From the NCBI GenBank assembly GCA_019925105.1, contig JAHGAU010000010.1:744001-808000 (forward strand): DNA of 64,000 nucleotides. Direction: 5' to 3'. Below the pieces are notes generated by a model, which did no database searches, was not told the DNA's origin, and saw only the letters and a list, made by a program, of their open reading frames with translations. Shown piece by piece: positions 1 to 57,700 of this stretch. This stretch comes from Niebla homalea (taxonomy: Eukaryota; Ascomycota; Lecanoromycetes; Lecanorales; Ramalinaceae). Both the position numbers and the translations under genes were made by a program. Each line of letters starts with the position of its first letter. The first letter of the stretch is position 1.

Positions 1-2620
1 TACTTTAAAAGAGAATTATAAGAATTAAATTTATAATAATATTTTTATTAATAATATTTTAAACGATATACTTATAAATAAAGTATTTCCGATTAAAAAA
101 TAAGGAAATTACCCTTAAATTTAATATAATTAAAATAAATAATAATTTAATAAATCGCGGGAAAAAATTAAAATTATCCTTTAAAATAATTCCGAGCTTA
201 AAATCCTTAAATACTTAAAGTTCCAAAATATATTTTTAAATTTATTATTTATTTTTATTAATATAATTATTTCAGATAAAGAAAAGGATATTTATTATTT
301 AACGTTAATATTATTTAAAAATAAGCCGGAATTATTTAAATTAAAAACCTATTAAGAAGCTATAAAAATACTTATTATAAAATAAATTAATAATTAACGG
401 GAAAGAATAAATATAGCTTTTATATTAAAAATAGTATTTAAATACTTATACTTAAATATACGATACCCCCGGGTATAATTATTTTAAAGGGACGATAAGT
501 TTATATTTTTAAGAAAAACGTTAACGGTTTAATTATTTAATATAAAACCTATTAAGTGGTTTACGATTACGAATAACGGGAAAGTATCGATTATAATAAA
601 ACTTTTATTTTTATAATTAAGCTTATAAGTTATAAGGTACTTTTTATATTAACAACGGTTAACAATTAAAACTTAAAGTAAATAAATGTAAAAACGGCCT
701 TTTTTTATAGTTTAATTAAGGAAGAAATCTATATAAAAAATTTTATAATTAAAAAAGGGTATTAATATATACTATAAACTTAATAAGGCCTTTTACGGAT
801 TAAAGTAATCCTTTTAATTATAATATTATTGTTTTTTTACCTTTATAAAAAAGTAAAAGTTTAAGTTAATACTTACGGATTATTACGTATTTATATACCT
901 TAAAGATAGAATAATTATAGCTTTCTATATAAATAATATTTTAATTATCAACTTATTTAAAGAAAACATCGTAAATTTAAAGAAGGTACTTAATAATTAA
1001 TTCCGTATATTTAATTTAAGGTTAATCTATTATTATTTAAGTATAATTATTATAAAAAACCGTTAAAATAAAACATTTTAATTTAATTAAAAAGCTTATA
1101 TAAAAAAAGTTATTAAGGAATATAAGTAATAAAATATTATTTTTATATATATCTTTATAAAGTTAAAATATAAGTTAAAGCTTATACTTAAAAACTATAA
1201 AACCGACCTGATTTTCCGGAAGAAATATTAATCGGCCATAAATTCTTTAATATACGTTATACTTAAAACTTGCTTAAATATTATTTACTTTATTTTAATA
1301 ATTAATTAATATATTTTAAATTTTATTAAATATTATTGATTGATTTATTTATTTATATACGAGTCTACCTACTTTAAGTTAATTTCGGCATTCTATAATA
1401 CTAATGGTTGAATTACGGTTATTTTAATATTTATATTTATTTTAAACTTATTACTTCAATTTTAAAAGGGAAGAGGAAACCGTAATTAACTAACTTAACC
1501 CTAGTTTACCTTAAATATTAACCCGATTTAAATAAAAACCTCTTCTTTATAATTATTTACCTTAATATTACGATTAAGTTTTTACGTTTATCCGATTAAA
1601 ATTAATAATTACTTTAAATCCTTAATTTATTATTTCCATTAAAAATCTTTTATTTTTTAACGTTATAATCCGTAATAAGGATTTCATAATAATATTAAGT
1701 TTAATCGGGAAAAAAAGGCTCCGATTATATAATTTTATTGTTCTTAATATTTAAATTTTACCTTAAGTACTTTATTATATGGTTTTTCGGATTAACCTTA
1801 TTTAATCTTAATTTTAAACTTTTAACGTTGAATCCCCATAACTTTTTTTTACCGGCCTTATGTGGTAATTAGGCTTATTTAGGGTTAATTACGGGTATTA
1901 ATAAATCATTAGATATTTATTACTATTTTATTTATATTAATTACGTAATTTACCGGATAGGGTTTAAGGGCTTTTAATGAAATCGTCCCTTACCCTTAAA
2001 ATATTCGATTATTCTATAGTTTATCTTCCGCACTCAAAAATGCCATTCCGCCACGCTCGCCCCTATTAAATATTATTAAAAGTTAATAAAAAGAATTTTA
2101 CGTTATTTCCGTATTATTATTATTTTTTAATTAATATATTAAGGTAAATTAAAAACTCTTAATAATTATACCGACTCCGATTTTACCGTAAATTCGACCC
2201 GGAAGTCTATTACGGGCTACGTATTTAATATTGGAAATACCGCGATTAATTAATAATTTAAGCGTTAAGTTACGGTTACCCTTTTTATTTATAAAACGGA
2301 ATATATAAAATAAATATAAATAATTAAAGAAACTTTATAATTTAAGTAGCTTTTAAATAAAATTAAACCGTATTAAGCCGGGAACCTTTTTATTATTATT
2401 ATTTATAAAGATAATTAAGGCGTTATAGCTTTTATTAAAAACCCCGTATTCTATACCCAGATTAAATATATAAGTATTTAATAATATTAACTTTAAAAAG
2501 TTATAAAAAATAACCGGATAAATTTAGAATATATCCCGACGTATAAATAAGTCGTTAACGACTTAATAAAACCTTTATTATATTAGCCCTTTAAGGGGTT
2601 CCGTAAGGTATTTAACCTTA
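1..2620 (+). pseudogene. Ty1/Copia pol remnant (RT and RNase H)
   Basis: Reading through stops gives a Copia polyprotein C-terminal half. Around 690-840 it has a KTAFFYSLIKEEIYIK-like block and LNKAFYGLK, matching Copia KTAFLYG...EEIYM and KALYGLKQ. Around 922-948 it has FYINNILII, which is the catalytic Y-V-D-D with both Asp codons turned to Asn, as RIP would do. After an insertion at 1338-2064 the frame resumes with YTDSDF...KSITGYVFNIG near 2170-2235, then DN-GVIAFIKNP and the TKPL end near 2570, which is the RNase H domain. The element would make a reverse transcriptase-RNase H polyprotein; here it is riddled with stops and dead. It runs in from outside the window. The family is clear; the boundaries are approximate. 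Confidence 0.85.
1338..2064 (-). mobile_element. SINE-like (tRNA-derived?) insertion with LINE-type tail
   Basis: A 727 bp insertion interrupts the Copia RT/RNase H exactly between the codons for the 'EHW' and 'KALKRILRYL' motifs. It is flanked by a perfect 14 bp duplication, TATTAAATATTATT, at 1324-1337 and 2064-2077. On the minus strand its 3' end carries a degenerate AATC/AAAT tail and just before it a stretch (CCGAAATTAACTTA...) resembling the last ~50 bp of the Tad1-like LINEs in this window. Its 5' end (minus strand, 2053-2043) reads TGGCGGAATGG, a full match to the tRNA A-box consensus. A B-box-like core, AATCGAATAT, lies at 2010-2001, at a tRNA-like spacing of about 43 bp. No protein motif was seen. 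The alternative is a 5'-truncated LINE of a related family. Confidence 0.65.
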
Positions 2621-3961: not shown

Positions 3962-4139
3962 TGTTATGGCAGTACCTACCCTGGAGCAAGGGCTCCGGGG
4001 TAGGGCCTACCCCTGGGGGTGATCCCCCGGGTAGACTACCTTCTTATATATGGTAATAGCGGCTTACCCCTAAGCGCTATTATCTACCCCGGATAGCTAC
4101 TTTTATCTATGAGATAACCGAGTGGTTATTACCCTAACA
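3962..4139. repeat. Left LTR of the TRIM-like element
   Basis: 178 bp, starting TGTTATGGCAGTACC and ending TTACCCTAACA. It differs from the right LTR at about seven sites, nearly all in the RIP direction (for example TAACA here, TGACA there), plus one T/G transversion. The interior begins directly after with GAGTAATAACGC. Confidence 0.9.
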
Positions 4140-4324
4140 GAGTAATAACGCAATTTCAGGGTAATATACCCCCGGAGTTAACCTTAAGGGTTTAAAGGGG
4201 TAGGTTTACAGTTTGAATCCGAGGATGCCCATTTTGGGTAACTTAGGAGGTAAGACTAAGCGTAAATACGGGGGCGGGTAGGACCCGCTACCCTACAGTA
4301 CCGGGGGCCGAGGTCCGAGGTACA

Positions 4325-4849: not shown

Positions 4850-5027
4850 TGTTATGGCAGTACCTACCCTGGAGCAAGGGCTCCGGGGTAGGGCCTACCC
4901 CTGGGGGTGATCCCCCGGGTAGACTACCTTCTCATATATGGTAATAGCGGCTTACCCCTAAGCGCTATTAGCTACCCCGGATAGCTACTTTTGTCCATGA
5001 GATGGCCGAGTGGTTATTACCCTGACA
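4850..5027. repeat. Right LTR of the TRIM-like element
   Basis: 178 bp direct repeat of 3962-4139, ending CCCTGACA and followed by the TSD CTATA. It keeps more G and C than the left copy, so the left copy carries the light RIP-type damage. Confidence 0.9.
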
Positions 5028-5032
5028 CTATA

Positions 5033-6330
5033 TTACCGCAATAAAGGGTATATCCACCCCGATTTTAACAATAAGGGGTATATTTATTCATTTTAAAACG
5101 TTAATAAAAATATAGTACCAATTACTTTAATCCTAGATAATTTCTGAATTTAAGAAAACCGTCCCTTAATAACGGCTTCGTAAGGCCGTTAATTATTATA
5201 TCCCCGGTAAAACAGTATATAAGCTCTACTTATTTATTAATTATATACTTTTAAAGAAAGTAATACTTAATATATATATACTTTATTTTTAAGTAATTTA
5301 TAGGGTTTTTTATTAATATAATCGCTTTTTAATTATTATAAAAGATTACTATAATAAGGGTAAAAGCCTTAATATTAAATTTAAATTAAATAAAAAAAGC
5401 GTAATTCTATATAATATCCCTATCCTTAAGGGTTAATAATATTATTGGATTTAGGGTAATTTTAATAAGTTAAGTTAATAGCCGTTTAAGCTAAATTGCT
5501 TCTTTAATAACGTTATATTATCTTACGTACTTAACCTTATAAATAAATAGGGCTATAATTGGTTAACGTTTTAAAAATTAATTAATAATTATACTTCCTA
5601 AGTTAAAAATATACCCAGAAATAAACCGGCGTATCTATAAGTCGCCGGCATAATTTAAGTCCGTATAACTATTAAAAGGCTTTAAAGGGCCTTCAAAAAC
5701 GAATTTTAAGGAGGCTATACCATAGAGGTAATAAAAAATCTTCTTAACGGCTATTTAATACCCTTTATTAAGGTTAAACGCATAACGTAATATTACCAAT
5801 ACCGTATAAATTATATTAAGTTTAATATCTATTATAATATATATAAGTAAACCGATAACGGACTAATATTTAAGCTGAAATTACTTTAAGGCAGTATACC
5901 TTTTATTAACCGGCTTAAAACGGGTATTTATATCTATAAAAATAGCTATATTATTACTTTTAAAAAAGGATTATTATATATATTAAATTAAGTAAAAACC
6001 TATTTAACGTAACTTTCTTAATTAAGAGTTAAAATTCGATTTTATCGATTACGGGTAATACTTATACTTAAGTATTAATTATATAGGCCCAAATCGGATA
6101 TCTTAAACTTCTTATTTAATTAAGTTTTTAAATCGGTAATAACCCGTTTATTAACTTTTATTATTAAAATATTATCGATATATATGGTAACGATAATATT
6201 AATATCCGGGTTTAAGAATACGTTATAGTCTTTATTAATATAATAATAGTTAAATTTCTTAAGGAATATAAAAAGGTATTAATATTAAATTTAAAGTACT
6301 TAGGGGACCACCCCAGGATTTTAAAGCTTA
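5033..6330 (-). pseudogene. Ty1/Copia pol remnant, minus strand
   Basis: Minus-strand reading gives the C-terminal half of a Copia polyprotein. IVTIYIDNILII near 6194-6168 is the Y-V-D-D motif with the second Asp changed to Asn. Next come DLGLYN-YLSISITRNRIKS and, near 5665-5589, SYTDLNYAGDL-IRRFISGYIF. That last block is the Copia RNase H start (YTDADYAGD...RRSTSGYIF). Stops are frequent, mostly TAA where Gln is expected. The N-terminal part is missing: homology ends near 6330, just before a minisatellite. Its 3' end runs toward the TRIM insertion; no LTR could be delimited. Confidence 0.8.
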
Positions 6331-18554: not shown

Positions 18555-20730
18555 GCTTATTTAAATATTATAGAAAGTCTAGAATTAATATTTAAAAGTA
18601 ATTAACGGTACTTATAAAATAACCCTTATTTCAGTATTAAAGTTTAAGGTCTTTATATTATTAATTAAAATCTTATTAAATTAAATAATCGCTTAAATAA
18701 GGTTAAAGAAATATATATATTTAATTACGATAATAAGAAACGGGCGGATCCATTAGAATCTTAATAAGCCTTAAGTTAAAAAGAATAAATTAAAAAAATT
18801 TATCCTTTTTTTTATTAAGATAAAGTAGGAATAAGTTAAAAGGAAAGTTAATTTTACCGGTATTCCTGAGGTTAATTTAAATATATATAAATTCCTATTA
18901 AACGTAAAAAAAACCGAAATTAAGGGGATTACAAGAACGAAAATTATAACGATTATTTTATAAATTACGATAAAGTAAATTAAACGTTAATAAAAATATA
19001 AGGACTTTATATTTTAAGGTTATTATTATTTAGTTTTTAATAATAAAAAGATTATTAATAATTATTTCCGTTATTATAATATTATAAAAAGAAGTAATAA
19101 CGTATTAACGATTTAATTCCAAACGGATAAAAACGGTTTAATTTATTTCTTATTTATTATATATACCGGAAATTGGATAAACGCTGGATAGAAATATAAA
19201 TAAAAAAAGTAAAACGCTATATACGTTTTTATCTTTTATTCTTTATTTATAAAAATTAAATTAAAACTTATCGTAAAAGTTAATACTTATAATTACCGTT
19301 AAATATTATTTATAAAATAAGGTATTTAAGTAATTATTAAGTTTATAATATTTACCGGATTATTATTATAGTTTAACTTCGTTATAAAGATAAATAAAGT
19401 TATTAAAGATCTTCCGGAAAAGGCCCGTTATTAATTAAAGAAAAAAAGGAGAAACAGAAACCGATTACGTTAATTATATAAATTAGAAAGCATTTTTTAT
19501 AGCCGTAAAAATATAATAATAAACGTTTATTAAAAGTTTTTAAAGGAATTAACGGCGATAATAAAATAAAAAAGGTATATATTAAACGCGTAAATATTAA
19601 TAAAATAAAATTTATTAAAATAAAATAAGAATAAACTAAAAAAGAAGTTAATTTTACTAATATCCCGGAGGTTAATTTAAACATATATAAACTCCCGTTA
19701 AGCGTAAGAAAAACCGAGATTAAAAAAATTTAAAAAGTAAAAGCTATAATAATTATTTTATAAATTATAATAAAATAAATTAAGTATTAATAAAAGTATA
19801 AAGATTTTATATTTTAAGGTTATTATTACTTAACTTTTAATAATAAAAAGATTATTAATAAGTATTTCCGTTATTATAATATTATAAGGAAGAATAATAA
19901 CGTATTAACGATTTAACTCCGGATAAATAAAAATAATTTAATTTACTTCTTATTTATTATATATACCGGAGGTTGGATAAACGCCGGATATAAGTATAAA
20001 TAAAAAAAATAAAACGGTATATACTTTTTATTTTTTATTTTTTATTTACGGAAATTAAATTAAGATTTATTATAAAAGTTAATATTTATAATTACCGTTA
20101 AATATTATTTACGAAGTAAGGTATCCGGGTAACTATTAAGTTTATAATATTTACCGGATTATTATTATAATTTAACTTTATTATAAAAATAAATAAAATC
20201 ATTAAAAACCTTACGGAAAAGGCTTATTATTAATTAAAGAAGAAAAAGAGAAGCGGAAACCGGTTACGTTAATTATATAAATTAAAAAGCATTTTCTATA
20301 GCTATAAGAATATAATAATAAACGTTTATTAAAAGTCTTTAAAAGAATTAACGGCGATAATAATATAAGAAAAATATATATTAAATACGTAAATATTAAT
20401 AAAGATATTTAAAGGCATTATATAAAATTAAGGTAATATAAATATATAAAGGAGCGGAAAAACAATAAGCTTAAAAGTAGCCTTTATAAGGATATAATTA
20501 TAATATTATGGATTTTCTTAAAAGAGTTAAAATATAAAAAGTATATAAATAAATTATTACTCTTTAAACGGCCATTAATATCTTTTACCTTAAGGGATAA
20601 AGGGTAAAAGCCTGGTAAACGCCGGTTTTTACCTTAACGTTATAAATATCAGGTTTTTACGGTTATTAGTAAAATTAAAAGGCCGCGTATTAAGGAACGC
20701 CGGAATTAACTTAACTAGATCCGTAATATA
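18555..20730 (+). pseudogene. LINE copy A ORF2 C-terminal part, duplicated
   Basis: Continues the LINE from the Gypsy insertion site. The C-terminal part of ORF2 in this family usually carries RNase H; I see no motif clear enough to mark it. It contains an 800 bp tandem duplication not present in copies B and C. The final ~50 bp (GGCCGCGTATTAAGGAACGC to GATCCGTAATAT) are nearly identical in A, B and C. A 93-codon minus-strand open frame (19684-19403) is antisense shadow. Confidence 0.65.
18822..20420 (+). repeat. 800 bp tandem duplication inside LINE A
   Basis: Two consecutive units with offset 800 bp. For example AGTTAATTTTAC occurs at 18846 and 19646, each followed by matching sequence through the GCATTTT...ATATAATAATAAACG block (19490s and 20290s). 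Units are about 18822-19620 and 19622-20420. Both are RIP-mutated with independent C/T and G/A differences. Confidence 0.85.
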
Positions 20731-20753
20731 AATCAATCAATCAATCAATCAAT
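20731..20753 (+). repeat. (AATC)n tail of LINE A
   Basis: Five-plus AATC units directly after GATCCGTAATATA. Tails of the same type end copies B and C, and a decayed one ends the SINE-like insertion at 1338. Confidence 0.9.
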
Positions 20754-21263
20754 AATAACCTTGTTTTATTTACTCTTTTTATTTATTACCGTTATCTACT
20801 TATTACTTTTACCTATTACTTTACCCCTTACCACCGTTACTACTTATTACCTCACTTACCACCCGCACTTACACCGGCACTTGCCCCTGTACTTGCCTTA
20901 GTAGCTGCACCTGCACTTTTACTTATTACCACCCTTACCACTCATCACCCTCACTCACCACCCTCACCCTCACTCACCACCCTCACTCACCACCCTCACC
21001 CTCACTCACCACCCTCACTTACCACCCTCACCCCCTCACCACCACCCTCACTCACCACCCTCACTTACCACCCTCACCCTCACCCTCACCCTTACCCTTA
21101 CCCTCACCCGCATCCATACCTATACCCTCACCTGGACCCTTACCTACACCCTCACCTGCACCCTTACCCTCACCCTACCTGCACCCTTACCCTCACCCTA
21201 CCTGCACCCTTACCCTCACCCTTACCTGCACCCTTACCCTCAGCAAACCCTTCAGCAAGAGGT

Positions 21264-21347
21264 GACGCCTGATGCCTATATGCCCTTACCGCAACAGGCC
21301 CAAAGACACCGTGATTTGGATGGAGAACCTAAGAGCTAAGCAAGGCC
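21264..21347 (+). repeat. 84 bp unique-sequence unit, copy 1
   Basis: GACGCCTGATGCCTATATGC through GAACCTAAGAGCTAAGCAAG, a non-simple sequence embedded in the CACCCT island. The same unit recurs at 22483-22566 with about nine differences. It is not recognised as part of any gene. Confidence 0.85.
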
Positions 21348-21380
21348 TCCTTATACCTGATGTAAGGCCCCATCCTCATT

Positions 21381-21520
21381 CACCCTTATCACCCTCATCA
21401 CCCTCATCACCCTCATCACCCTCATCACCCTCATCACCCTCATCACCCTCATCACCCTCATCACCCTCATCACCCTCATCACCCTCATCACCCTCATCAC
21501 CCTCATCACCCTCATCACCC
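21381..21520 (+). repeat. 9-bp (CACCCTCAT)n array
   Basis: About 15 nearly perfect units. The near identity suggests recent slippage, in contrast with the irregular surrounding words. Confidence 0.9.
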
Positions 21521-22482
21521 TTACCCTCACTCTCACCCTCACCCTCACCTGCACTACCACCCTTACCTACCTCACTATTACCATTACCATCACCATCGCC
21601 CTCACCATCACCCTTACCATCACCCTTACCATCACCCTCACTATCACCCTCACCATCACTATTACCCTCACCCTCACCTTTATTATCACCTGCACCTTAC
21701 CACCCTCACCTGCACCCTCACCGTCACCATCACCCTTACACTCACCCTCCCCCTCCTCACCCTTACCCTTACCATCACCATCACCCACAACTTCACCCTC
21801 AACATCACCATCACCCTTACCACCACCATCATCTTCATCACCCTTACCACCCTCACTTGCACCCTCACCTGCACCCTCACTTACCACCCTCACCACCCTC
21901 ACCTGCACCCTCACTTACCACCCTCACCACCCTCACCTGCACCCTCACTTACCACCTTCACCACCCTCACCTGCACCCTCACTTGCACCCTCACCTGCAC
22001 CCTCACTTACCACCCTTACCACCCTCACTTACACCTTCACTTGCACCTTCACTTGCACCCTTACCACCCTCACTTACACCCTCACTTACCACCCTCACCA
22101 CCCTCACTTGCACCCTCACTTACCACCCTCACCACCCTCACTTGCACCCTCACTTACCACCCTCACCACCCTCACTTGCACCCTCACTTACCACCCTCAC
22201 CACCCTCACTTGCACCCTTACCACCCTTACTTGCACCCTTACTTGCACCCTCACTTACCACCCTCACCCACCCTCACTTACACCCTTACTTATCACCCTT
22301 ACCAGCCTCACTTGCACCCTTACTTATCACCTTCACCACCCTTACCCTCACCCTCACTTGCGCTATCACCTTTACCACCACCCTTACCTACTGCACCCTC
22401 ACCTACTGCACCCTCACCTACTGCACCCTCACCTACTACAAGCCCTTTACTAAACCCTTCACCAGGCTCTTCACTATGATGC

Positions 22483-22566
22483 GACGCCTAATGCCTGCAT
22501 GCCTTTACCGCAACAGGCCGAAAAACACCGTAATTTAGATGGAGAACCTAAGAGGTAAGCAAGGCC
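22483..22566 (+). repeat. 84 bp unique-sequence unit, copy 2
   Basis: A direct repeat of 21264-21347, 1219 bp downstream. The copies suggest the simple-repeat block between them and the unit were amplified together as a larger tandem repeat. Confidence 0.85.
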
Positions 22567-22589
22567 CTTTACCTGCACGCTTACCACAC

Positions 22590-30369: not shown

Positions 30370-30619
30370 AAATTAAACCTATGAATAAGAATTTGAGGAT
30401 GGCGACGAACAAAGCGACCTTAAAGGTCTAAAACGATACGTACACGCATAGCTCTAATAACAGTGAAGGAAGTATATTAAGTACGATAAATAGAAATAAT
30501 ATAATGGTTAAGAATAAAGTAATAAACGGGTAAGTAACTTATATTAATAGAAACGGTAACAACGTATATAAATAATATAATAATAATAAGCCGGATAACG
30601 TTTAAAATAAATAAAGGAA

Positions 30620-32220
30620 TTAAGGTTAATAAAATATATATATTAAAGCACATAAAACGTATAATAATAATACGGAGGTAATAGGTAAATAAGGGGGTAG
30701 GAAGGCCGATATGGTATTAATAATAAAGGATATAAGTGGGGGAAAAGGCAGAAAGATTATAATAAAAGTATTATTAAGGGTATATAAAAGGGAAATAAAG
30801 CTAATAAGGAAAATAAGATTTTAAAAGATTAAAAGTAAAAAGCGGAGACAATATATTGCCCGATGAATAAAGGCGAAAAAGCGGTAAAAGAGATAATAAA
30901 AACTTTAAAAGGACTTTTTACGGTAAAGTGGAAGGATATTATATTAAAGATTTAACTAATATTATAGATTAAATTAAAAAACGTAGAAGACTTTTATATA
31001 AAAATAAAAATAAAATTAAGGAAAACGGAGCGCTTATAAGGCTTTTAAAAGGCGGAAGCAAAAATATTAATAAAGGGTAAAAACGGCGGCTTAAAATTAA
31101 GGGTACGAAATAAAAATATAAAGGTAATAGTCCTTTAAGTAAAAGAAAGTTAAACGATAAAAATAATAAAAATGGTACTTACGGTAAAGAATAAAAAAAT
31201 AACGGAGGAAAAAACAGCTATATTAAAAAAGGTGAGAATAATAATAATCTGCTTATTTAATAATAAGGAAAAAAACGCGGTTACGGAAGTAAACCTATTA
31301 TAATTAATAAAGGTTTTTAAAATAATAACGGAATTATTAATAAAATAAATTATTATAATACGTAAATTATAAAGTAAAAATATTTTCCTTAATATAACGT
31401 TTTTAAAAATAAAAAAAAGCTTAAAAAGGTTTAAAGCTTAAATTAATAAGGAAGAATATAAGTTAATTAAGGTTTTAAGGTAATCGTTTACTATTATAAT
31501 AAATAAAATATACTTTTTATATTTTATAAAAACCGAAAAAAAGGCTACATTAAGGAATAAAAAAAAAGAATATAATTCTTTATTTAAAGCTTAAAATCGT
31601 TAATTATAAGCTTTTTCCGGTAATAAAAAGACTTAATTCTTTAAAATACGTAAAGAAATATTTTACCGTTATATTAAGTATAACGTTAATAAAAATATAT
31701 AATAATATTCTAAATAAAAATATTATTAAAAGGGGATTTCTTAAGATAACTTAACTATAAAATAAGACGGCGGATATTTATTAATATTTTAAATATTAAA
31801 GTTATAAATATATTATTATAAAATATATAATTTATATTAAAAGTTATAATATTTATAAGTATATAAAGTTAATAATTAAGGGGCTTATAAAGGGCGCGCT
31901 TAAATACGCCGTATATAATAAGGAAGAATATTTAATATAGGATTTTAAATATATAATAAAAACTAAAAAAACTAAACGTAAGGAAACCTAAATAATCGTG
32001 AAAATCTAACGGTATAATACGTACGGAATTAATTTAACGGATTAATTAAAAATAACCTTAAGACGTAAACTTAACCAATTAAATAATAAAGGGTAAATAA
32101 CGATAATAAATAAAATAAAGAAAAAAAAGCTTTTTATAATCCCGACTTTAAAGGCCGGCCGTCTTATATTTTTAATAATAGTTAAAAAGGTATTAAGTTA
32201 AAAAACATTTAATTTTAATA
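30620..32220 (+). pseudogene. LINE copy B ORF1 remnant
   Basis: Aligns with ORF1 of copy A. The zinc-knuckle region lies near 31770-31860, again with Cys codons changed to Tyr. Some short deletions relative to A are visible near the knuckle: the A segment TATTTTAATATTATAAAATA is shortened here. Confidence 0.65.
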
Positions 32221-32259
32221 AAAAGTTTATAACCTAAACGGGTATAAATAAAGGAGCCC

Positions 32260-35200
32260 TTATAAAAATTAATATATAATATATTAACGTTTTTAAGAAT
32301 AATATAATATAACGTCCGTAATAAAAGAATTAAAATAATAATACCAATATTTAAGTTTAAAGAAGTTAAAAACGTTAATATTATAGTAATATAGGAATTA
32401 CTATGTAGTTTATATATATATTTATTTATTAACCTAAAAAAAAGGTTTTACTTAACCTTTAAGGGGAATAAGATAATTAAAATATGCTTTTTTATAAATA
32501 AGCGGCTTAACATAAATAATTAAAATATTATTTATTACGGTAGAAATTTTTATATACTCCGTATTATAAAAAAAAAGGGGACTTAAAAGGTAACCTTAAT
32601 ATTTATAACGCATATAATCCGTTATTAATTAATAAAGAAAGACCGTTTGTAATACCGTTATTTAAAAAGGTCTTAATTACCTTAAGCGAATATATATTGC
32701 TTAAAGACTTTAATTTATATTATTATATATAAAACGAAGAAGGATATACGATAAATTATATTAAATCGGATGATTTATTAATAATTATTATTTAAGTTAA
32801 CTTCTTATTATTAATATTATAAGGGATTATTACGTAAAAAAGTTATAAGTTTAAAATAATAATTAATTTAACTTTTAATACGGAAAAAATTATTAATACG
32901 GTTATAATACATAAGTTACGAAAGGACTTAAAGTATAACTTAAATTATATATTAATATAAATAAGCTTAAATTAAACCGTTAATATAACCTTATTATTAC
33001 CGGTAAAAAGGGCGTAAAAAACGGTTAAGAAAATAAAATTTATATAAAAGCGGAGGAGATAATAATATAATTTACGGACCTCTTTTAATTAAATAATAAA
33101 AACCGGATCGATTTTTTTATAAAGTAAATAATAAAGGTATTAAACGAGGTAATTAATAAAGTAATCCTGATAATAAAGCCTTTTTAAAGAGTTAAAATTT
33201 ATTAAAATAAAGGGTATATAACCGCGATTATAAAAGTAAAAAAATTAATAAAATAAACTTTTAAATATAGGAATTAAAAGATACTTAATTAACTAAAAGT
33301 TACTTAAAAAGAAAAAGAGAAAACTATTAAAAAAGCTAAATAAATATATTTTCGGTTTATAATATATAACTTAACGGTTTTATTTTATAATATTTAAAAG
33401 TTAACGAAGTATAATAAAAAATAAAGTAAGAAATTAAAGTTTATTTTTAAATTTTTACCCCTTAAAAAACCCAATAATATATTAATTAATATCTTTAATA
33501 ATAAGATTAAAGCCCTTAAAGGATTATTTTTCCCCCCTTTATTAAAAATTTACTTAAATAATATCGACGGTATTATATATTTTAACCTTATATTAATAGA
33601 TAAGGTAATAATATAAGATATAATAATTAAAACGATTAATAAATTAAAAAAGGATAAAGCCTTAAAACCGAATAAGATCCTTAATAAATTTTTATTAATA
33701 ATAATATTGCCGTTTAAGAGGGTTTTTATTTATTTCTTTTAAGTATACCTAAACGTCGGTTATTACTTACGTAAATTTAAAAAAAATAAAAATAATTATC
33801 TTTAAGAAGCTTATTAAGCCGGATTACTTTAAAGTAAAGTTTTATAAATTTATTATACTTTTTTATATATTAAAAAAAACCTTTAAAAACGGTAATAATG
33901 AAAATCCTTAGTAATTATATAGAGAATTACGGACTTCTTTTTAATTAATAAATAAAAATAAGGAAAAATCGGTTAATAAAAATAACCTTTAAAGGATTAA
34001 TTAATAACGTATATATAATATAAGGTTACGGGAAAAAATATATTATAAATCTTTTTTTCTTTTAATATTATAAGTACCTTTAATAAAGTAAATTATTAAA
34101 AATTATTATATAACTTAAGGAAGAAGGAAATATTTTCTTTTTTAATTGAATAAATAAAGAATTTCTTAAATGATAACGTTACGTTAATTAACCTAAGATA
34201 AAAAATAAGTTTAATAAAGCCCGTTATAATAAGGATTCCTTAAGAATTGCTTATTTTTTTTATATTATTTTTATTCTTTAACGGTTTATTAATCGAGAAA
34301 CTAATTAAGTTAAAATAAAAAGTTTAAGTTAAAAACTTTATCGATAACGTTTATTTTTTAATTTATAATACCTTTATATATATAAATTATTTAAAATTAA
34401 AATAAACTTATAAAGTTTATTTTTAATAAATGAAAACTTATAAAACTTAATTCGCGCCGTATAAGTAAAAATTCATTTATATAATTAAAAGCTTAAAGTT
34501 ATATAATATAATAATTATAATAAACTTAAATAGAATTACGGTAAAACCGGATATTAATATTAAAGTTTTTAACATTTAATTAAATAAAAAGCTTAATTAA
34601 AAAAACTATATAAGAAAAATTTAAAAGAAAATAACTTTGTAAGAAAAAGGTTTTATTTATTTTATTATATTAATATAAAAAGTTATATTATAGAAAGCCT
34701 AAACTATTTATTAAGTTATAATAAAGTTAATTATAATATATACTATAGTTATCTAATATATATTTAAGGGTACTTTAGGATATAAAAAAAAGTTTATTTA
34801 AATATTATAGAAAGTTTAAAACTGATATTTAAGAATAATTAATAATATTTATAAAGTAATTTTTATTTTAATATTAAAGTTTAAGGTCTTTATATTATTA
34901 ATTAAAGTTTCGTTAAATTAAATAATCGCTTAAATAAGGTTAAAAAAATATATATACTTAATTATAATAATAAAAAACGGACGGATCCATTAGAATCTTA
35001 ATAAGTTTTAAGTCAAAAAGAATAAATTAAAGATATTTATCCTTTTTCCTATTAAGATAAAATAGGAATAAATTAAGAAAAAGTTAATTTTATTAATATC
35101 TCGGAAGTTAATTTAAGCGTATATAAATTCTTATTAAATATAAGAAAGATTAAAATTAAAAGGATTTAAAAAGCGAAGATTATAATAATTACCTTATAAA

Positions 35201-36120
35201 TTATAATAAAGTAAATTAAACGTTAATAAAAATATAAGGACTTTATATTTTAAAGTTATTATTATTTAATTTTTAATAATAAAAAGATTATTAATAAATA
35301 TCTTTATTATTATAATATTATAAAAAAAAGTAATAACGTATTAATAATTTAACTCCGGATAAATAAAAACGGTTTAATTTACTTCTTATTTATTATATAT
35401 ATCGGAAATCGGATAAACGTTAAATATAAATATAAATAAAGAGAATAAAACGTTATATACGTTTTTATTTCTTATTTTTATTTACGGAAGTTAAATTAAA
35501 ACTTATCGTAAAAGTTAATATTTATAATTATTGTTAAATATTATTTATAAAATAAAGTATTGAAATAATTGTTAAATTTATAATACTTATTAAATTATTA
35601 TTATAATTTAACTTTATTATAAAGATAAATAAGGTTACCGAAGATTTTAAGGAAAAGGCCCGTTACCGGTTAAGGAAGAAAAAAGAAATAAAACCCGGTT
35701 ATATTAATTATATAAACCAGAAAATATCTTTTATAATTATAAAAATATAATAATAAATATTTATTAAAAGTCTTTAAAGAAGTTAATAACAATAATAATA
35801 TAAAAGGGATATATATTAAGTACGTAAGTATTAATAAGGATATTTAAAGGTATTATATAAGGTTAAAATAATATAAATATATAAAGGAACGGAAAAATAA
35901 CGAATTTAAAAATAGCCTTTATAAAGATATAATCATAATATTATGGATTTTCTTAAGGGAGTTAAAATATAAGAAATATATAAATAAATTACTATTCTTT
36001 AAACGGCCGTTAATATCCTTTACTTTAAGGGGTAAAAAGTAAAGGCCTGGTGGACGCTGGTTTTTACCCTAACGTTATAAGTACCAGGTTTTTGCGGTTA
36101 TTAGTAAGGCTAAAAGGCCG
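32260..36120 (+). pseudogene. LINE copy B ORF2 remnant
   Basis: Endonuclease block near 32578-32625 and reverse transcriptase with the altered GxPQGSP block near 34230-34280. The catalytic site reads IDNVYFLIYN near 34340-34370 (the FVDD motif with one Asp changed to Asn). Stops are dense. The last ~50 bp before the tail (GGCCGCGTATTAAGGAACGC onward) match copies A and C closely. Confidence 0.75.
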
Positions 36121-36202
36121 CGTATTAAGGAACGCCGGAATTAACTTAGCTAGATCCGTAATATAAATCAATCAATCAATCAATCAATCAAATTAAACCT
36201 AT

Positions 36203-41770: not shown

Positions 41771-42019
41771 ATTTAAAGCGGTTAGAATGGCGACGAACAA
41801 AGGGACCCCAGAGGTCCAAAACGATACGTATATATATAGCTTTAATAATAGTAAGGGAAGTATATTAAGTGCGATAAGTAGAAGTAACGTGGTGGTTAAG
41901 AATAAGGTGGTAAATAAATAAGTAATTTATATTAATAGAAACGGCGATAACGTATACGGGTAATATAATAATAATAAGCCGGATAACGCTTAAAATAAAT
42001 AAAAAAATTAAGGTTAATA

Positions 42020-43640
42020 AAATATACGTATTAAAGCGCGTAAAACGCGTAATAATAATACGGAAATAATATATAAATAAAGGGGTAAAAAAACCGGTAC
42101 GGCATTAATAATGAAAAATATAAGCGGGGGGAAAAGGCGGGAAGACCGCGGTAAAAATACTATTAAGGGTATATAAAGGGGAAATAAAGTTAATAAAGAG
42201 AATAAAACCTTAAAGGATTAAAAGTATAAAACGGAGATAATACGTTGCTTAATAAATAAAAATAAAAGGGTAATAAGGGAAACAGTAAAGGCTTTAAAAG
42301 GATTCCTTATAATAAAATAGAAGGATATTACGTTAAAGACTTAACCGATATTATAAATTAAATTAAAAAATATAAGGGACTTTTATATAAAAATAAGAAT
42401 AAAATTAAAGAAAACGGAGTATTTATGGGACTCTTAAGGGGCGGGAGTAAAGGCGTTAATAAAAAGTAAAAATAGCGGCTTAAGGTTAAGGATATAAAGT
42501 AAAAATATAAAGGTAATAACTTTTTAAGTGAAAAAAAGCTAGGTAATAAGGATAATAAAGGGGGTATTTACGGTAAAGAATAAGGGGATAACGGAGGAAA
42601 AAACAGCCGTATTAAGGAAAATAAAAATAATAATAATCTGCCTATTTAATAATAAGGAAAGAAACGCGGTTACGGAAATAAAACTATTATAATTAATAAA
42701 GGCTTTTAAAATAATAATAGAATTATTAATAAAATAAATTATTGTAATACGTAAGTTATAAAATAAGAATATTCTCCTTAATATAACGTTATTAAAGGCG
42801 AAAGAAAACTTAAAAAAATTTAAAACTTAAATTAATAAAAAGAAATATAAATCGGTTACGGTTTTAAGGTAATTATTTACCGTCGTAATAAATAGAATAT
42901 ATTTATTACGTTTTATAAAAACCGAAAAAAAGGTTATATTAAGGAATATAAAAAAAAAGAATATAATTCTTTATTTAAGGCTTAAAATTATTAATTATAA
43001 GCTTTTTCCGGTAATAAGGAGATTTAATTCCTTAAAATACATAAAAAAGTATTCTATTATTATATTAAGCGTAACGTTAATAAAAATATATATTAATATC
43101 TTAAATAAAGGGATTATTAAAAGGGGATTACTTAAGATAATTCGGTTATAAAATAAAGCGGCGGATATTTATTAATATTTTAAATATTAAGGTTATAAAT
43201 ATATTATTATAAAATATTTTAATATTATAAAATATATAATTTATATTAAAAATTATAATACCTATAAGTATATAAAATTAATAATTAAAGGATTTATAAA
43301 GAACGTACTTAAATACATTATATAGAATAAGGAAAGATACTTAATATAGGATTCTAAATATATAATAAGAATTAAGGAGATTAAACGTAAGGAAACCTGG
43401 ATAGCTATAAAAATCCAATGGTATAATATGTACGGAATTAATTTAACGGGTTAATTAAAGATAACCTTAAAACGTAAATTTAATTAATTAAATAATAAAA
43501 GGTAAATAACGGTAACGGATAAAATAAAGAAAAGGAAATTCCTTATAATCCCGACTTTAAGGGCCGGCCGTTTTACGTTTTTAATAATAGCCGGGAAAAT
43601 ATTAAATTAAAAAACGTTTAACTTTAATAAGAAATCTATA
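42020..43640 (+). pseudogene. LINE copy C ORF1 remnant
   Basis: Aligned to ORF1 of copies A and B. The decayed zinc-knuckle segment lies near 43170-43270. No usable start or open frame survives. Confidence 0.65.
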
Positions 43641-43659
43641 ACTTAAATAAATATAAATA

Positions 43660-46600
43660 AAAGAGCCTTTATAAAGGTTAATATATAATATATTAATATT
43701 TTTAAGAATAATATAATATAACGTTTATAATAAAGGAATTAAAATAATAATATTAATACTTAAGTTTAAAAAAGTCAAGGATATTAATATTATAATAATA
43801 TAAGAATTATTATATAATTTATATATATATTTATTTATTAACCCGGGGAAAGGGTTCTATTTAGCCTTTAAGGGGGATAAGATAACCAGAATATATTTCT
43901 TTATAAATAAATAGCTTAATATAAATAATTAAAATATTATTTATTATAATAAAAACCTTTATATATTCCGTATTATAAGGGAAAAGGACTTAAAAGGCGA
44001 CCTTAATATTTATAATATATATAACCTACCGCCGGTTAATAAAAAAAGATTATTTACGATATTATTACTTAAAAAGGTTTTAATTATTTTAAATAAATAT
44101 ATATTATTTACAGACTTTAATTTATATTACTATATATAAAACGAAGAAAAACATATAATAAATTATATTAAATTAAATAATTTATTAATAATTATTATTT
44201 AAGTTAATTTTTTATTATTAATATTATAAGGAACTATTACGTAAAAGAGTTATAAGTTTAAAACGATAATTAATTTAATTTTTAATATAAAAGGGGTTAT
44301 TAACGCGGTTATAACGTATAAGCCACGAAAGGACTTAAAATATAACTCGGACTATATACCGATATAAATAACTTTAGATTAAACCGTTAATATAACCCTA
44401 TTACCACCGGTAAGGAAAACGTGGAAAACGGTTAAAATAATAAAGGTTTATATAAAAATAAAAAAGACGGTAATATAATTTACGGACCTCCTTTAATTAA
44501 ATAATAAAGACCGGATCGATTTCTTTATAAAGTAAATAATAAAAATATTAAACGAAATAATTAATAAGATAATCCTAATAATAAAGCTTTTTTAAAAAGC
44601 TAAAATTTATTAAAATAAAGGGTATATAACCGTAATTATAAAAGTGAAAAGGTTAATAAAATAGGCTTTTAAGTATAAAAATCAGGAAATACTTAATTAA
44701 TTAAAGACTACTTAAAAAGAAAAAGAGAAAATTATTAAGAAAGTTAAGTAAATATACTTTTAATTTATGGTATATAACTTAATAATCTTATTTTATAATA
44801 TCTAAAAGCTAATAAAGTATAATAAGGAATAAAATGGGAAATTCAAGTTTATCCTTAAATTCCTGCTTTTTAAAAGACCCAATAATATATTAATTAATAT
44901 TTTTAACGGTAAAATCGAGGCCCTTAAAAAAGTATTTTTCCCCTTTTATTAAAAATTCACTTAAACGATATTGACGGCGTTATATACTTTGATCCTATAT
45001 TAATAAATAAGGTAATAATATAAGATATAATAATTAAAGCGATTAATAAATTAAAGAAGGATAAAACCCCGGGATTAAATAAGATCCTTAATAAATTCCT
45101 ATTAATAATAATATTACTATTTAAAAAGGTTTTTACTTACCTTTTTTAAGTATATTTTAACGTTAATTATTATTTACGTAAATTTAAGGAAATAAAAACG
45201 ATTATTTTGAAGAAGTTTATTAAGCCGGATTATTTTAAAATAAAGTCTTATAAACCTATTATATTCCTTTATACGTTAAGGAAAACCTTAAAGATAATAA
45301 TAATAAAGATCCTTAATAACTATATAAAGAATTATAGACTTCTCCCCGATTAATAAATAAAAATAAGGAGAAATTAATTAATAAAAATAGCCCTTAAAGG
45401 ACTAATTAATAACGTATATACGGTATAAGGTTATAAGGAAAAGTATATTATAAATCTTTTTTTTCTCGATATTATAAGTATTTTTAATAAGGTAAATTAT
45501 TAAAGGTTATTATATAACTTAAAGAAAAAAAGTATATTATCCTTCTTAATTAAGTAAATAAAAAGTTTTTTAAGTAACTGAATTACGTTAATTAACCTAG
45601 GATAAAAGATAAGCCCGATAAAGCCCGCTATAATAGGGATTCCTTAAGGATTACTTATTTTTTTTATATTATTTTTATTCTTTAATAGTTTATTAATTAA
45701 AAAGCTCGTTAAGTTAAAATAAAAAATGTAAATTGGAAATTTTATTAATAACGTTTATCTCTTAACTTATAATACCTTTATATATATAAACTATTTAGAA
45801 TTAAAATAGGCTTATAAAGTTTATTTTTAATAAATAAAAACTTACGGGGCTTAATTTATATTATATAAATATAAGTTTATTGATATAATTAAAAGCCCGA
45901 AGTTATACGATATAATAATTATAATAGACTTAAGTAGAATTACGGTAAAGCCAGATATTAATATTAAAGTCTTTAACCTTTAAGTAAATAAAAAGCTTAA
46001 TTAAAAAGATTATATAAGAAAAATCTAAAAAAAGATAATATTATAGGAAAAAGGCCTTATTTATCTTATTATATTAATATAAGGAATTATATTATAAAAG
46101 GCCTAAACCGTTTATTAAATTATAATAAAGTTAACTATAATATATACTATAATTATTTAATATATATTTAAGGGTACTTTAAGATATAGGAAGGAGCTTA
46201 TTTAAATATTATAGAAAGTCTAAAATTAATATTTAAGAATAATTAATATTACTTATAAAATAACCTTTATCCCGGTATTAAAGTTTAAAATCTTTATACC
46301 GTTAATTAAAATTTTATTAAATTAAATAATTACTTAAATAAGGTTAAAGAAATATATATATTTAATTACGATAATAAGAAATAAACGGATCCGTTAAAAT
46401 TTTAATAAGCTTTAAGTTAAAAAGAATAAATTAAAGATACTTATCCTTTTTCCTATTAAGATAAAGTAGGAATAAATTAAAAAAGAAATTAATTTTACCG
46501 GTATCCCGGAAATTAATTTAAACGTATATAAACTTTTATTAAACGTAAAAAAAATTAAAATTAAAAATATTTAAAGAATAAAAACTATAATCATTACTTT

Positions 46601-47510
46601 ATAAATTATATTAAAGTAAATTAAATATTAATAAAAATATAAGGATTTTATACTTTAAAATCGTCGTTATTTAATTTTTAACGATAAAAAGATTATTAAT
46701 AAGTATCTTTATTATTATAATATTATAAAAAAGGATAATAACGTATTAATAATTTAACTCCGGACGGATAAAAATAATTTAACTTATTTCCTATTTATTA
46801 TATATATTGAAAATCGGATAAATACCGGATATAAGTATAAATAAAGAAAGTAAAACATTATATACGTCCTTATTTTTTATTTTTTATTTATAGAAATTAA
46901 ATTAAAACTTATTATAAAAGTTAGTACTTATAATTACCGTTAAATATTATTTATAAAGCGAAGTATTTAAATAATTATTAAGTTTATAATATTTATTAAA
47001 TTATTATTATATTTTAATTTTATTATAAAGATAAATAAAGTTACCGAAGATCTTACGGAGAAAACCTATTATTAATTAAAAAAAAAAAAGAAACAGAAAC
47101 CGATTATATTAATTATATAAACCGGAAAGTATTTTTATAATTATAAAGATATAATAATAAATATTTATTAAAAATCCTTAAAAAAATTAATAATAATAAT
47201 AATATAAGAAAAATATATATTAAACGTATAAATATTAATAAAAATATTCAGAAATATTACGTAAAATTAAGTTAATATAGATATATAAAGGAGCAAAAAA
47301 GTAATAAGTTTAAAAATAGCCTTTATAAGGATACGGTCGTAATATTATGGATTTTCTTGGGGGAGTTAAAATATAAGAAGTATATAAATAAATTATTATT
47401 CTTTAAACGACCGTTAATATCCTTTACCTTAAGGGATAAAGGGTAGAGGCTTAATAGACGCCGGTTTTTACTTTAACGTTATAAGTATTAAGTTTTTACG
47501 GTTATTAATA
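43660..47510 (+). pseudogene. LINE copy C ORF2 remnant
   Basis: Endonuclease block near 43985-44035 and reverse transcriptase block G-D/G-x-L-x-I near 45637-45690. At the catalytic site both Asp codons are lost: ATTAATAACGTTTATCTC near 45742 reads INNVYL where A and B keep IDNVY. Stops are dense throughout. Confidence 0.75.
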
Positions 47511-47600
47511 AGGTTAAAAGGCCGCGTATTAAGGAACGCCGGAATTAGTTTAGCTAGATCCGTAATATAAATCAATCAATCAATCAATTTAAAGCGGTTA

Positions 47601-54768: not shown

Positions 54769-57700
54769 CCTTTATTTATATACTTTTAATATCTCTTTTA
54801 ATCCCGTTATTATTAAGTATATCTTAAGTAAATTCGTTATATAATTTTAAGTACGTTTTAAGAAGGCTTAATCGTTTGAATAGGCTTTATTTAAATTTTA
54901 TTTTATAAATTTTAATATCTTTTTTTATTAATATATTTATGATAATATTATACGTAATTATTTAACTTATATTTGTTTATTAATACTATTTCTTTATCGG
55001 TTTATTATATTGGTCTTAAAAAAGTAATTAAAAGGGGTAATAATTTATTATAATTATTATTGCCTATATATTATTACTTAGGAAGGTAAAAGAAAGAAGA
55101 AAAAATAAAATAATTATTTATTAATCTTCGGATAACTCTTTAACCTTTATATAAATTCCTTTAACGTTTATTATTATACTTGATGACCTTTATTAAAGGT
55201 ATATTTTTTATTATAATTTTTAATATTTACCTTTATTTATTTATATGTTTTTCCCTTAATTAATTAATATATTAAATACCCTTAAGGCTATATTTACTTA
55301 TAAATAAAACATATTTTTATATTCTTTTAATAACTTACGTATAACTATCCCGATATAAATATTTTTAAAAGGCATATTGAAAGGGGTTCTTTTTAAACGT
55401 AATAATATTACTTATTATTTTTATTAAGTTCCGTCTTAGCCGGTTCCGTTAACGAGTAAAACATTAAAGGTAACGTTTAATTATTTACTTATTTAATAAT
55501 TATACCACGTAACCGTTTACTTTATCCTTTTCGTTTATCCATTTTTTTAAATTTTTTTTTACTTTTTTAAATTCTTTTACTTCTTTAACCTTTTTAATCT
55601 TTAACTTTTTTTATACTTTAATTAATTTATTTTAAATTTAATTTAATTTTATACTTAATTATTAATTATCCTTTTAAAAGTATATATAAATTTATAATTT
55701 TAATATCGGTTATTTCTTTTAAATTTATATTAACTTCTTTATAGTTTTTTTAGAATTTTAAACTTAAATTATATTAATTAAAATTACCCTTATTATATCT
55801 TTATATTTTAAAAAACGTACTTTAATTATTACCCTCGTTAAATTAAATAAATTCATTTTTATTATTATTAAAATTTATTTAAATATTAATTAAATAATTT
55901 ATTTAAAGTTATATCCGTTAATCCCTTATAACCTTAGTTTATTTTAATTTCTTTATTTTTAAAAGCTTTTTACGGTATATATTTAGGTTTACGCCTTTTA
56001 TATACGTAAAGGTACTTAGGTATATATCCGGTATTAATAAATTAATAGTAATTACTATTTTATTTTTATTAATTATTATTATATTGAAGGTTTATTTAAT
56101 AACGTATATTTAAACTATATTTTTAGGTATAAACCCCGTAATTATAACTTCTATTTAAGTATATATAGATTAATCCGTTTTTAATTAATTATCGTTAATT
56201 TTTCTTTATAGACTTTTAATATAAAAACGTAATTTAAATGAATACTTTTTTTAATATACTATATATTCTTTAATCTTAATATTAATTATAAGTTTAATAT
56301 AAAAAGTTATACGTACTTTATAATTAATTATAATTTATAGTTAACTTAATAATTATAGCCTTAATAAATATCCCCTTCTTTATCCTTTATATTTAATATT
56401 TAATTATTATTATTATAGCCTACTTTTAATCCTTAGTTATTTCGTTTTATTACTTAATTACTTTAGTAATCTCGGTTATTCCGTTTATTTCCTTTATTTT
56501 CCGTTTAATTAATTTAACCGTTTATATCGTTTTCCCCTTGTCCGTTTATTTAATCGACCTTTTTAATTTAAACGCGTTAATTATCTTTACGTTAATCCGG
56601 CCTTACCGGTATCGTTAATTTATCTCGGTTATATAAACCTGATTAATATAAAAAAGCCCGTATAAAATATAGCCCGTCCTTTTTAAAGATTAATATTTTA
56701 ACGGAATTACGTAAATAATTATTTAAAAAAATAATAATATCGTTTATCCGACTTAAATTTAATTAGGGATATTTCTAATTTAGGTTTTAATAATCCCGAT
56801 CTTAATAAGTTGTTTTTCTTTCTTATATATAAAGTAATTATTAACCGGTTCCTTATTTAAACGATATACCTACCTGAATTCCTTTATTAACTTTCCTTTT
56901 TTTTGGGTCCGTTATTCGTATTATACGTACGCGGTAATCCTTATCCGTATCTCTATAAGTATCTTTTCCTTAATAAGCTTTTTCTTTTATTTTATCCCCG
57001 TATATATAATAACCTTTAAAGTCTTTAACTTAAATACGATTTTTTAATCGTTTTTATTTAAAGTTACTTCCGTAAATAATACGGTTATACTTTAAGGAAA
57101 GGTTTATATCCTTCTTTAACTTTATATCGTTAACCTTAATAAACCCTATATTTCGGATTATTCTTAAGCTTATTATATTTAATTTATATTTTTTTAACTT
57201 TAACTCCGGACCGTAATTATTATAAGTATTATTATAGTTTTAATTTTAATATATATTTTACCGATAAAATATATATATAATTATCCGCGGATCAGAACCT
57301 TAATTAGTCTTCGGGTTATTTTATTAGTTTCCTCGGTTATATTACCGGGTTTACCCGTTGGGTTATTTCCTTAATAACGGGTTATTTTCGTTTTAGGTTA
57401 CGTCCTTATATATATACCGGTTTTCCTATTCCGTTTCCGCCCCCGTTCTTAAGGTAAAATAATTAATACGGTTTTATGCCCCGTAATTATTATAATAAAG
57501 GATAATCCTAAATATATTCTTTTATTTTAAGGGTATACTTAAAGCCTTAATTACCCGCTATTTAAAATGGTTTTTATATTTATATTAACGGTATATTTTA
57601 TTTATTTTTTTAATATAATATTTATAATAAATTTAATAGATCTTAATAAAAAGCCTTTAGAAATAAAGCTATAATTAATTTAAATTTTAATAATTTTAAT
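54769..57700 (-). pseudogene. Unidentified degraded coding block, minus strand
   Basis: On the minus strand, long stretches read as plausible protein if TAA is taken as former Gln, for example around 57250-56950 and 56850-56300, and basic Lys-rich residues are common. I could not match it to reverse transcriptase, integrase, endonuclease or a transposase. It could be a gag or ORF1 region of another retroelement. The assignment as coding is inference from texture. Confidence 0.35.

Follow-up and report, generated by a model that had tools for sequence, protein, structure and literature searches.

A SINE-like retroposon family that very probably depends on a local LINE and whose 5' end is not demonstrably of tRNA origin

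Fungal pairs of a SINE and a Tad-type LINE are already known, and the family that we describe here works like them. The fungal SINEs listed in an excerpt of PMC5063351 include MgSINE (472 bp), mgsr1 (800 bp), Foxy, Egr1 (700 bp) and EGH24 (900 bp), and the same excerpt reports that AfuSINE2-1a and the Tad-clade LINE I-1_AF have a common 3' end. A table of 58 SINEs with their LINE partners is given in PMC3747384, and the part of it drawn on here has two fungal entries, Mg-SINE with MgL (MGR583) and SINE2-1_BG with Tad1-24_BG. An excerpt of PMC6022598 presents Eg-R1 as a SINE-like element that has internal poly(T), lacks A and B boxes and gives a Pol II transcript. Finally there are the MINE chimeras of Magnaporthe grisea, in which WEIRD RNA is joined to MGL (PMC2104539, in part).

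The element of interest lies in a stretch of 64,000 nucleotides, which we refer to as the window (Table 1), and is one member of a short, non-coding repeat family whose copies number well above a hundred. Mg-SINE with MGL/MGR583 (Magnaporthe grisea) is alike in having a LINE-like 3' end and in being thought to be mobilised by the LINE (PMC3747384 and PMC2104539, both in part), but, compared by description, it is 472 bp long and listed as tRNA-derived (excerpt of PMC5063351), whereas the element here is 726 bp and has no demonstrable tRNA head. In the case of SINE2-1_BG/Tad1-24_BG and AfuSINE2-1a/I-1_AF the likeness is again that SINE and Tad-type LINE share a 3' end (parts of PMC3747384 and PMC5063351). 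However AfuSINE2-1a has 370 bp, about 4 copies, ACT repeats at its end and a tRNA-Arg head (PMC5063351, same excerpt), while our family has over a hundred copies and an AATC tail. Eg-R1 of Blumeria graminis resembles it in its length of about 700 bp, its SINE-like nature, its internal poly(T) and the want of a convincing Pol III promoter (PMC6022598 and PMC5063351, in part). It differs in being reported to lack both boxes and to give a polyadenylated Pol II transcript (PMC6022598, in part), whereas our family, known here from DNA sequence alone, has an A box in one subfamily. In the MINEs, too, the 3' part of a LINE is attached to a non-coding RNA between direct repeats of 10-20 bp, but their junctions are individual and the LINE parts often long (PMC2104539, in part), whereas the window family has one junction and about 50 bp of LINE. 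It is a clean fungal SINE/LINE pair, and as only about 50 nt and the tail are shared it could be used for testing what a fungal LINE enzyme needs in its RNA.

Table 1. Positions in the window of the retroposon, its parts and the partner-type LINE copies
Feature	Position	Strand	Remarks
Complete SINE-like retroposon, subfamily A	1338..2063	minus	726 bp; bounded by TSD
TSD, 14 bp, perfect	1324..1337		sequence TATTAAATATTATT; empty site known
TSD, 14 bp, perfect	2064..2077		sequence TATTAAATATTATT; base 2064 is its first base
Head, element positions 1-40	2024..2063	minus	nearly RIP-free in 31 aligned copies
A-box match TGGCGGAATGG	2043..2053	minus	3/1000 shuffles as good
T5 run between boxes	2036..2040	minus	potential Pol III terminator; in 50/50 copies
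B-box-like site, consensus TGGTCGAACAT	2001..2011	minus	139/1000 shuffles as good
LINE-like 3' end and decayed (AATC)n tail	1338..1401	minus	from alignment to LINE ends
3' hairpin region common to LINE	1360..1387	minus	stem disrupted in window copy
Partner-type LINE copy, about 5.8 kb	41786..47588	+	TSD 14 bp (about 41771-41784, 47587-47600); heavily RIP-mutated
Second LINE copy	30399..36188	+	13-bp TSD; same 3' end
3' end of third LINE copy	20687..20753	+	5' part from 6673, interrupted

An earlier note on this DNA had described a 727 bp minus-strand insertion with a perfect 14 bp target-site duplication (TSD). Insertion, strand and duplication all stand, and only the length changes, to 726 bp, as base 2064 belongs to the TSD. 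When the flanks are joined with one copy of the duplication they match elsewhere in the genome, and all 40 of the scored matches (158 candidates) cross the junction; these matches are the uninterrupted target of the window insertion. The host repeat at the target is apparently Copia-like, judged by an RNase H motif. The A-box sequence TGGCGGAATGG and the B-box-like sequence AATCGAATAT are present where the note had placed them, and both the TSD and the LINE-like tail of the window element clearly exceed chance. A match of 50 bp, AT-rich, between element positions 122-171 and window 56030-56075 (E 3e-9) was judged to be low complexity, since the stretch matches many places there and the match vanishes when the consensus is used.

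The genome searched was the window's own, of 50.6 Mb in 52 contigs. With the window element as query there were 206 candidates, and all 40 that were scored, the window copy included, span at least query positions 3-726; the other 39 are 84-88% identical to the window element. Genome-wide, a head pattern of 17 bases is found without mismatch at 57 places and its reversed control at none, with a common start point in all 30 loci fetched from these matches, and a 28-bp head pattern, with up to three mismatches allowed, matches 145 places (control 0). Other copies with the same 5' end, the lack of which would have spoken against the proposal of the earlier note, thus exist, and many of them share the one fixed start. 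Our alignments use 31 distinct copies from the first 30 loci and, as a wider set, 50 distinct full copies from 60 family loci and the window, some of them picked by their head. In this family sample of 60 loci and the window there is no longer relative that continues into LINE ORF2. The incomplete copies in it, as far as they were traced, seem to have been broken up by other insertions or to run off the edge of a locus. In one further copy (L107, G000:C11:1090578-1090688) GGGAT-type repeats and other sequence stand in place of the first 78 bp or so, and this is either a nested insertion or a chimera.

Perfect TSDs of 9-16 bp bound 44 of the 50 full copies, and in 42 of the 50 they have at least 11 bp; the commonest length is 13 bp (19 of 44). 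As a control the right flank was taken from another copy, and repeats of at least 9 and at least 11 bp were then seen in only 23 and 3 of 500 cases respectively. For 6 of the 50 there is no TSD of at least 9 bp. The full copies fall into two subfamilies, type A with 39 and type B with 11; what separates them is a deletion, three transversions and 35 transitions. We also considered, and rejected, a coding head: an ATG at position 18 of the consensus opens a frame of 53 codons. The frame has no Pfam match, and it is no evidence for coding since the consensus rule itself strips stop codons; by manual reading the type B consensus has one codon of the frame changed and an in-frame TAG. A search of the literature for this particular family found no description, which does not of itself establish that it is undescribed.

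With regard to the 3' end, the claim that it resembles the last 50 bp or so of the window's LINEs is borne out. The window element is 77, 77 and 74% identical over 65 bp to the LINE ends at 20687-20746, 36122-36181 and 47526-47585 respectively. When the two consensus ends, less their tails, are aligned locally the score is 48, where the maximum in 2000 dinucleotide shuffles is 25; 40 of 46 LINE bases are identical and the element has a five-base insertion. The shared part comprises the last 50 bp or so before the tail, and is followed in both element and LINE by AATC repeats; the (AATC)n tail of the element is variable among family copies. The junction between LINE-like and unrelated sequence is fixed at about position 660, and upstream of it there is no match to the window's LINE copies at E 1e-6. 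The association of this 3' end with the head holds also when the ends are found independently of the head: for 43 of 53 such ends a known start lies as far off as expected, 38 of them at the first matching and 5 more among the rows listed of the 145 head matches.

It is plausible, on folding of the consensus ends, that a hairpin is shared by LINE and element. Both ends are predicted to take the same fold, with the extra bases of the element in the loop, and the energy is equalled by 24 of 500 shuffles for the LINE consensus and 91 of 500 for the SINE consensus. In single mutated copies there is no fold signal (mean z -0.43 for 14 LINE copies and 0.08 for 48 SINE copies). One outer pair, G-C in the LINE (14/14) and A-U in the element (47/48), is preserved through a change on either side, and its neighbour, A-U in the LINE, is lost in the element (A-C in 46/48). 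Further in, pairing at positions 9 and 10 of the LINE is seen in 8 of 14 copies each; for the element, position 9 is paired in 21 of 48. The 48 SINE rows are the 50 copies less L074, whose end is off the pattern, and less one identical row; they include some noise, as at least row L086 is mis-anchored and about six rows with an extra base are out of register.

TSDs were found for two of the three LINE copies in the window, and their lengths, 14 and 13 bp, are in the range of those of the element; for the third copy (3' end 20687..20753) one was looked for and none found. A LINE-specific 3' pattern matches 634 places in the genome (control 0), and LINE 3' and 5' segments used as queries give 1486 and 1117 candidates. 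These counts are loosely comparable with those for the element, and from them the LINE is several times commoner. Single read-through LINE copies gave no reverse transcriptase with Pfam, and a profile built from three such copies hit a single protein, P0001 (RVT_1, E 1.6e-13, 7994 candidates scored), the match having 22% identity over 47% of the query. The region FVDD...HGAKFAPDKYE of P0001 corresponds to the frames of the window LINEs, and as a motif it is typical of Tad1-clade elements. In the name "Tad1-like LINE" used by the earlier note the LINE part is thus supported by a LINE-type reverse transcriptase, and the clade part is a tentative assignment by motif.

No intact partner LINE was identified among the reverse transcriptase frames read, which comprised one long open frame, C38, with four other stop-free rows left out. 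C38 (G000:C38:226935-227417, L104) was rejected as the partner: it is RVT_1 by Pfam and, judged by its motifs, Ty3/Gypsy-like. In its own right it is an apparently RIP-free copy of LTR type, with an open frame of 1225 aa and a GC content of 53%.

The family has many copies, a fixed 5' end, TSDs of variable length and a 3' end with simple repeat shared with a LINE. The copy family, the TSDs and the LINE-like 3' end together make LINE-dependent retroposition well supported, and we are confident that this is a LINE-dependent, non-coding, SINE-like retroposon. Judged from the shared 3' sequence, it very probably uses the copying enzyme of the local LINE by imitating the LINE tail.

As to where the element came from, it could be suggested that it is an internally deleted LINE with both ends derived from the LINE, which would suit the LINE-like 3' end and the fact that the LINE also begins near AATGGC. 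However only the last 65 bp or so of the consensus match the window LINE copies at E 1e-6, which largely rules this out, and the LINE 5' end, AATGGCGACGAACAAAGGG, does not continue like the element head; we regard such an origin as very improbable. A MINE-like origin deserves more weight, and we consider it possible if rather improbable. Here the LINE reverse transcriptase would have switched from the LINE 3' end to another non-coding RNA, and one such chimera would then have been amplified, which is compatible with LINE-dependent retroposition. The single fixed junction at about position 660 between LINE-like and unrelated sequence is what one would expect, and there is the precedent of the Magnaporthe MINEs, made from WEIRD RNA and 3' parts of the MGL LINE and having direct repeats of 10-20 bp (PMC2104539, in part). 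On the other hand MINEs have 5'-truncated LINE pieces of up to 5 kb, where there are about 50 bp here, and junction-specific primers distinguish individual MINEs, while the junction here is constant. Nor was a source gene for the 5' part, these 660 bp or so, seen among the 40 scored consensus matches (304 candidates). All of them begin within the first two positions of the consensus and span 645 bases or more, and their identity does not exceed 91%.

The more difficult question is that of the 5' end. A classical tRNA-derived SINE, as the earlier note had proposed, would have its first 75 nt or so from a tRNA gene and be transcribed by Pol III from internal A and B boxes. We scored the boxes with matrices built from 24 nuclear tRNAs of the same genome. 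For subfamily A the A box is equalled by 3 of 1000 shuffles and the A and B pair also by 3 of 1000, but the B box by itself by 139. In subfamily B the A box is equalled by 262 of 1000, the B box by 128 and the pair by 79, and 10 of the 11 copies carry C in place of the first A-box T. The pair score of subfamily A is owed nearly entirely to the A box. The main remaining point in favour is that the best pair in the scan lies at positions 11 and 53, a tRNA-like spacing; its combined score of 13.1 is within the range of 26 nuclear tRNAs (minimum 9.4, median 21.2). Of the two boxes of an internal Pol III promoter the A box exceeds chance, in subfamily A only, and the B box is at chance level.

For homology we used 40 tRNAs of the genome, an incomplete set of 26 nuclear and 14 mitochondrial. 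(The contig G000:C49 has 15 of the 46 tRNA matches and is probably mitochondrial.) The best nuclear alignment of the head, with a score of 33.0, is to tRNA-Arg(ACG), in which the surroundings of the A box match, but as good a score is reached by 79 of 400 shuffles against the nuclear tRNAs and by 98 of 400 against all of them. The head RNA gives no cloverleaf when folded, and its fold is equalled or bettered by 168 of 200 shuffles. A search of Rfam at lax thresholds, with 16 loci and then three low-mutation loci (one of them new), found no tRNA match; a Y_RNA match inside an element (E 9.7, 18 bits against a cut-off of 38) is put down to chance. There is in addition the T5 run at +24, between the boxes, in 50 of 50 copies. 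With this evidence a tRNA origin of the head is not borne out by the sequence comparisons, and we think Pol III transcription of a tRNA-derived SINE unlikely, although it keeps some weight. What survives of the proposal that a SINE parasitises the local LINE is the LINE-dependent retroposon and not the tRNA derivation; as the LINE-dependent features that can be tested from sequence are present and the tests for a tRNA head came out negative, we file the element as SINE-like rather than as a tRNA-derived SINE.

An alternative to which we give a chance not far short of even is a retroposon like Eg-R1, in which the RNA would be a non-coding Pol II transcript with a LINE-compatible 3' end and the A box would be fortuitous. 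The length of 726 bp, the internal T runs (T5 at 24 and 526) and the weak boxes are much like what is reported of Eg-R1 (PMC6022598, in part), and subfamily B has been amplified without the A-box T. A further point comes from the 5' junctions, where 25 of the 44 TSD-bearing copies have extra bases between the TSD and GGGG. In 15 of these 25 the base next to the element is G, and G makes up 9.8% of the flanks. A cap-derived G would give this, so that the extra 5' G would fit a capped Pol II transcript but is no proof of it, as it could equally well come from sources with a longer run of templated G, and 19 of the 44 copies have no extra base. It also has to be set against this reading that the A box of subfamily A is unlikely to have arisen by chance. 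Subfamilies with and without the A-box T make the choice between Pol II and Pol III directly testable.

The Eg-R1-like reading can be taken one step further, and this we offer tentatively, with somewhat less confidence than the reading itself: the A box would be fortuitous, the gain of the last 50 nt or so of a LINE would by itself have turned a capped Pol II transcript into a SINE-like parasite, the family would belong with Eg-R1 to a Pol II branch of the SINE-like elements of fungi, and the first 40 bp, with the start site, would be shielded from RIP.

The cycle that we propose for the LINE-dependent retroposon would then run as follows. The RNA may come from a Pol II transcript of the Eg-R1 kind, for which the prospects are slightly less than even, or, as the less likely source, from Pol III with a degenerate internal promoter. 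It would carry the 3' hairpin and tail of the LINE and be taken in trans by the LINE enzyme, which would nick an A+T-rich target and copy the RNA by target-primed reverse transcription. RIP would then mutate each new copy independently.

The mutation spectrum of the family is a RIP-type signature: the 31 copies differ from the consensus by 1848 G>A and 1297 C>T changes against 141 other changes. The latter comprise 81 reverse transitions and 60 transversions, few for 22,308 bases, which makes the family young if RIP is left aside. For positions 41-720 of the 31 copies the frequency of C>T-type changes in all contexts is 68% for CpA, 47% for CpT, 39% for CpG and 26% for CpC. RIP in Neurospora is centred on CpA, and is narrower than the contexts seen in this family.

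The mutations are not evenly distributed along the element. At positions 1-40 of the 31 copies 5.6% of C/G bases are changed against 44% expected from dinucleotide context, and at positions 41-80 it is 41% against 44%, with a sharp shift at about position 40. With all 50 copies, those chosen by their head included, 8% and 18% are changed in the first and the second 20-bp bin, followed by 48% for 41-60, 31-34% for 61-120, 51% for 121-640 and 24-35% for 661-727. In the LINE 15% are changed over the first 40 bp, where the nineteen bins that follow have 21-46%, and 9-11% over the last 80 bp, these edge figures being from three copies, one of them trimmed at the 5' end. We considered whether the low figure for the head could be an artefact of searching with it, and rejected this because of the 43 of 53 head-independent 3' ends that have a known start. 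Counted among the 100 rows listed of the 145 head matches, at least 35 of the 53 have a head within one mismatch of the 28-base pattern. For the 15 ends without known start at the first matching, four 5' regions were read: one has a nearly intact head, one is joined to foreign sequence and two have no element sequence.

A second possibility, that RIP-damaged copies serve as sources and selection keeps head and tail, was also rejected, as the mutation counts look independent for each copy. There are 23 sites with a mutation in every one of the 11 subfamily B copies, where 27.2 are expected from the frequencies in A, and 47 with a mutation in none of them, where 52.4 are expected. Four sites are exceptions, of which 11, 547 and 548 are fixed in A and 16 is fixed in B. 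The simplest reading of the low mutation in the head is ordinary tapering of RIP at the edges of repeats, and protection by something bound at the ends is still to be reckoned with. The nearly mutation-free first 40 bp are in either case a natural data set on RIP at repeat edges.

For the rest of the window, in which no intact gene was recognised, two regions may be mentioned. At 20847-22575 there is a C-rich minisatellite-like block of 47-56% GC with strong GC skew and, in three reading frames, long open stretches of repetitive Pro/His/Leu/Thr, which is probably no gene. At 3962-4190 and 4850-5077 there are repeats of about 230 bp, 90% identical, that flank a GC-rich kilobase in very AT-rich DNA.
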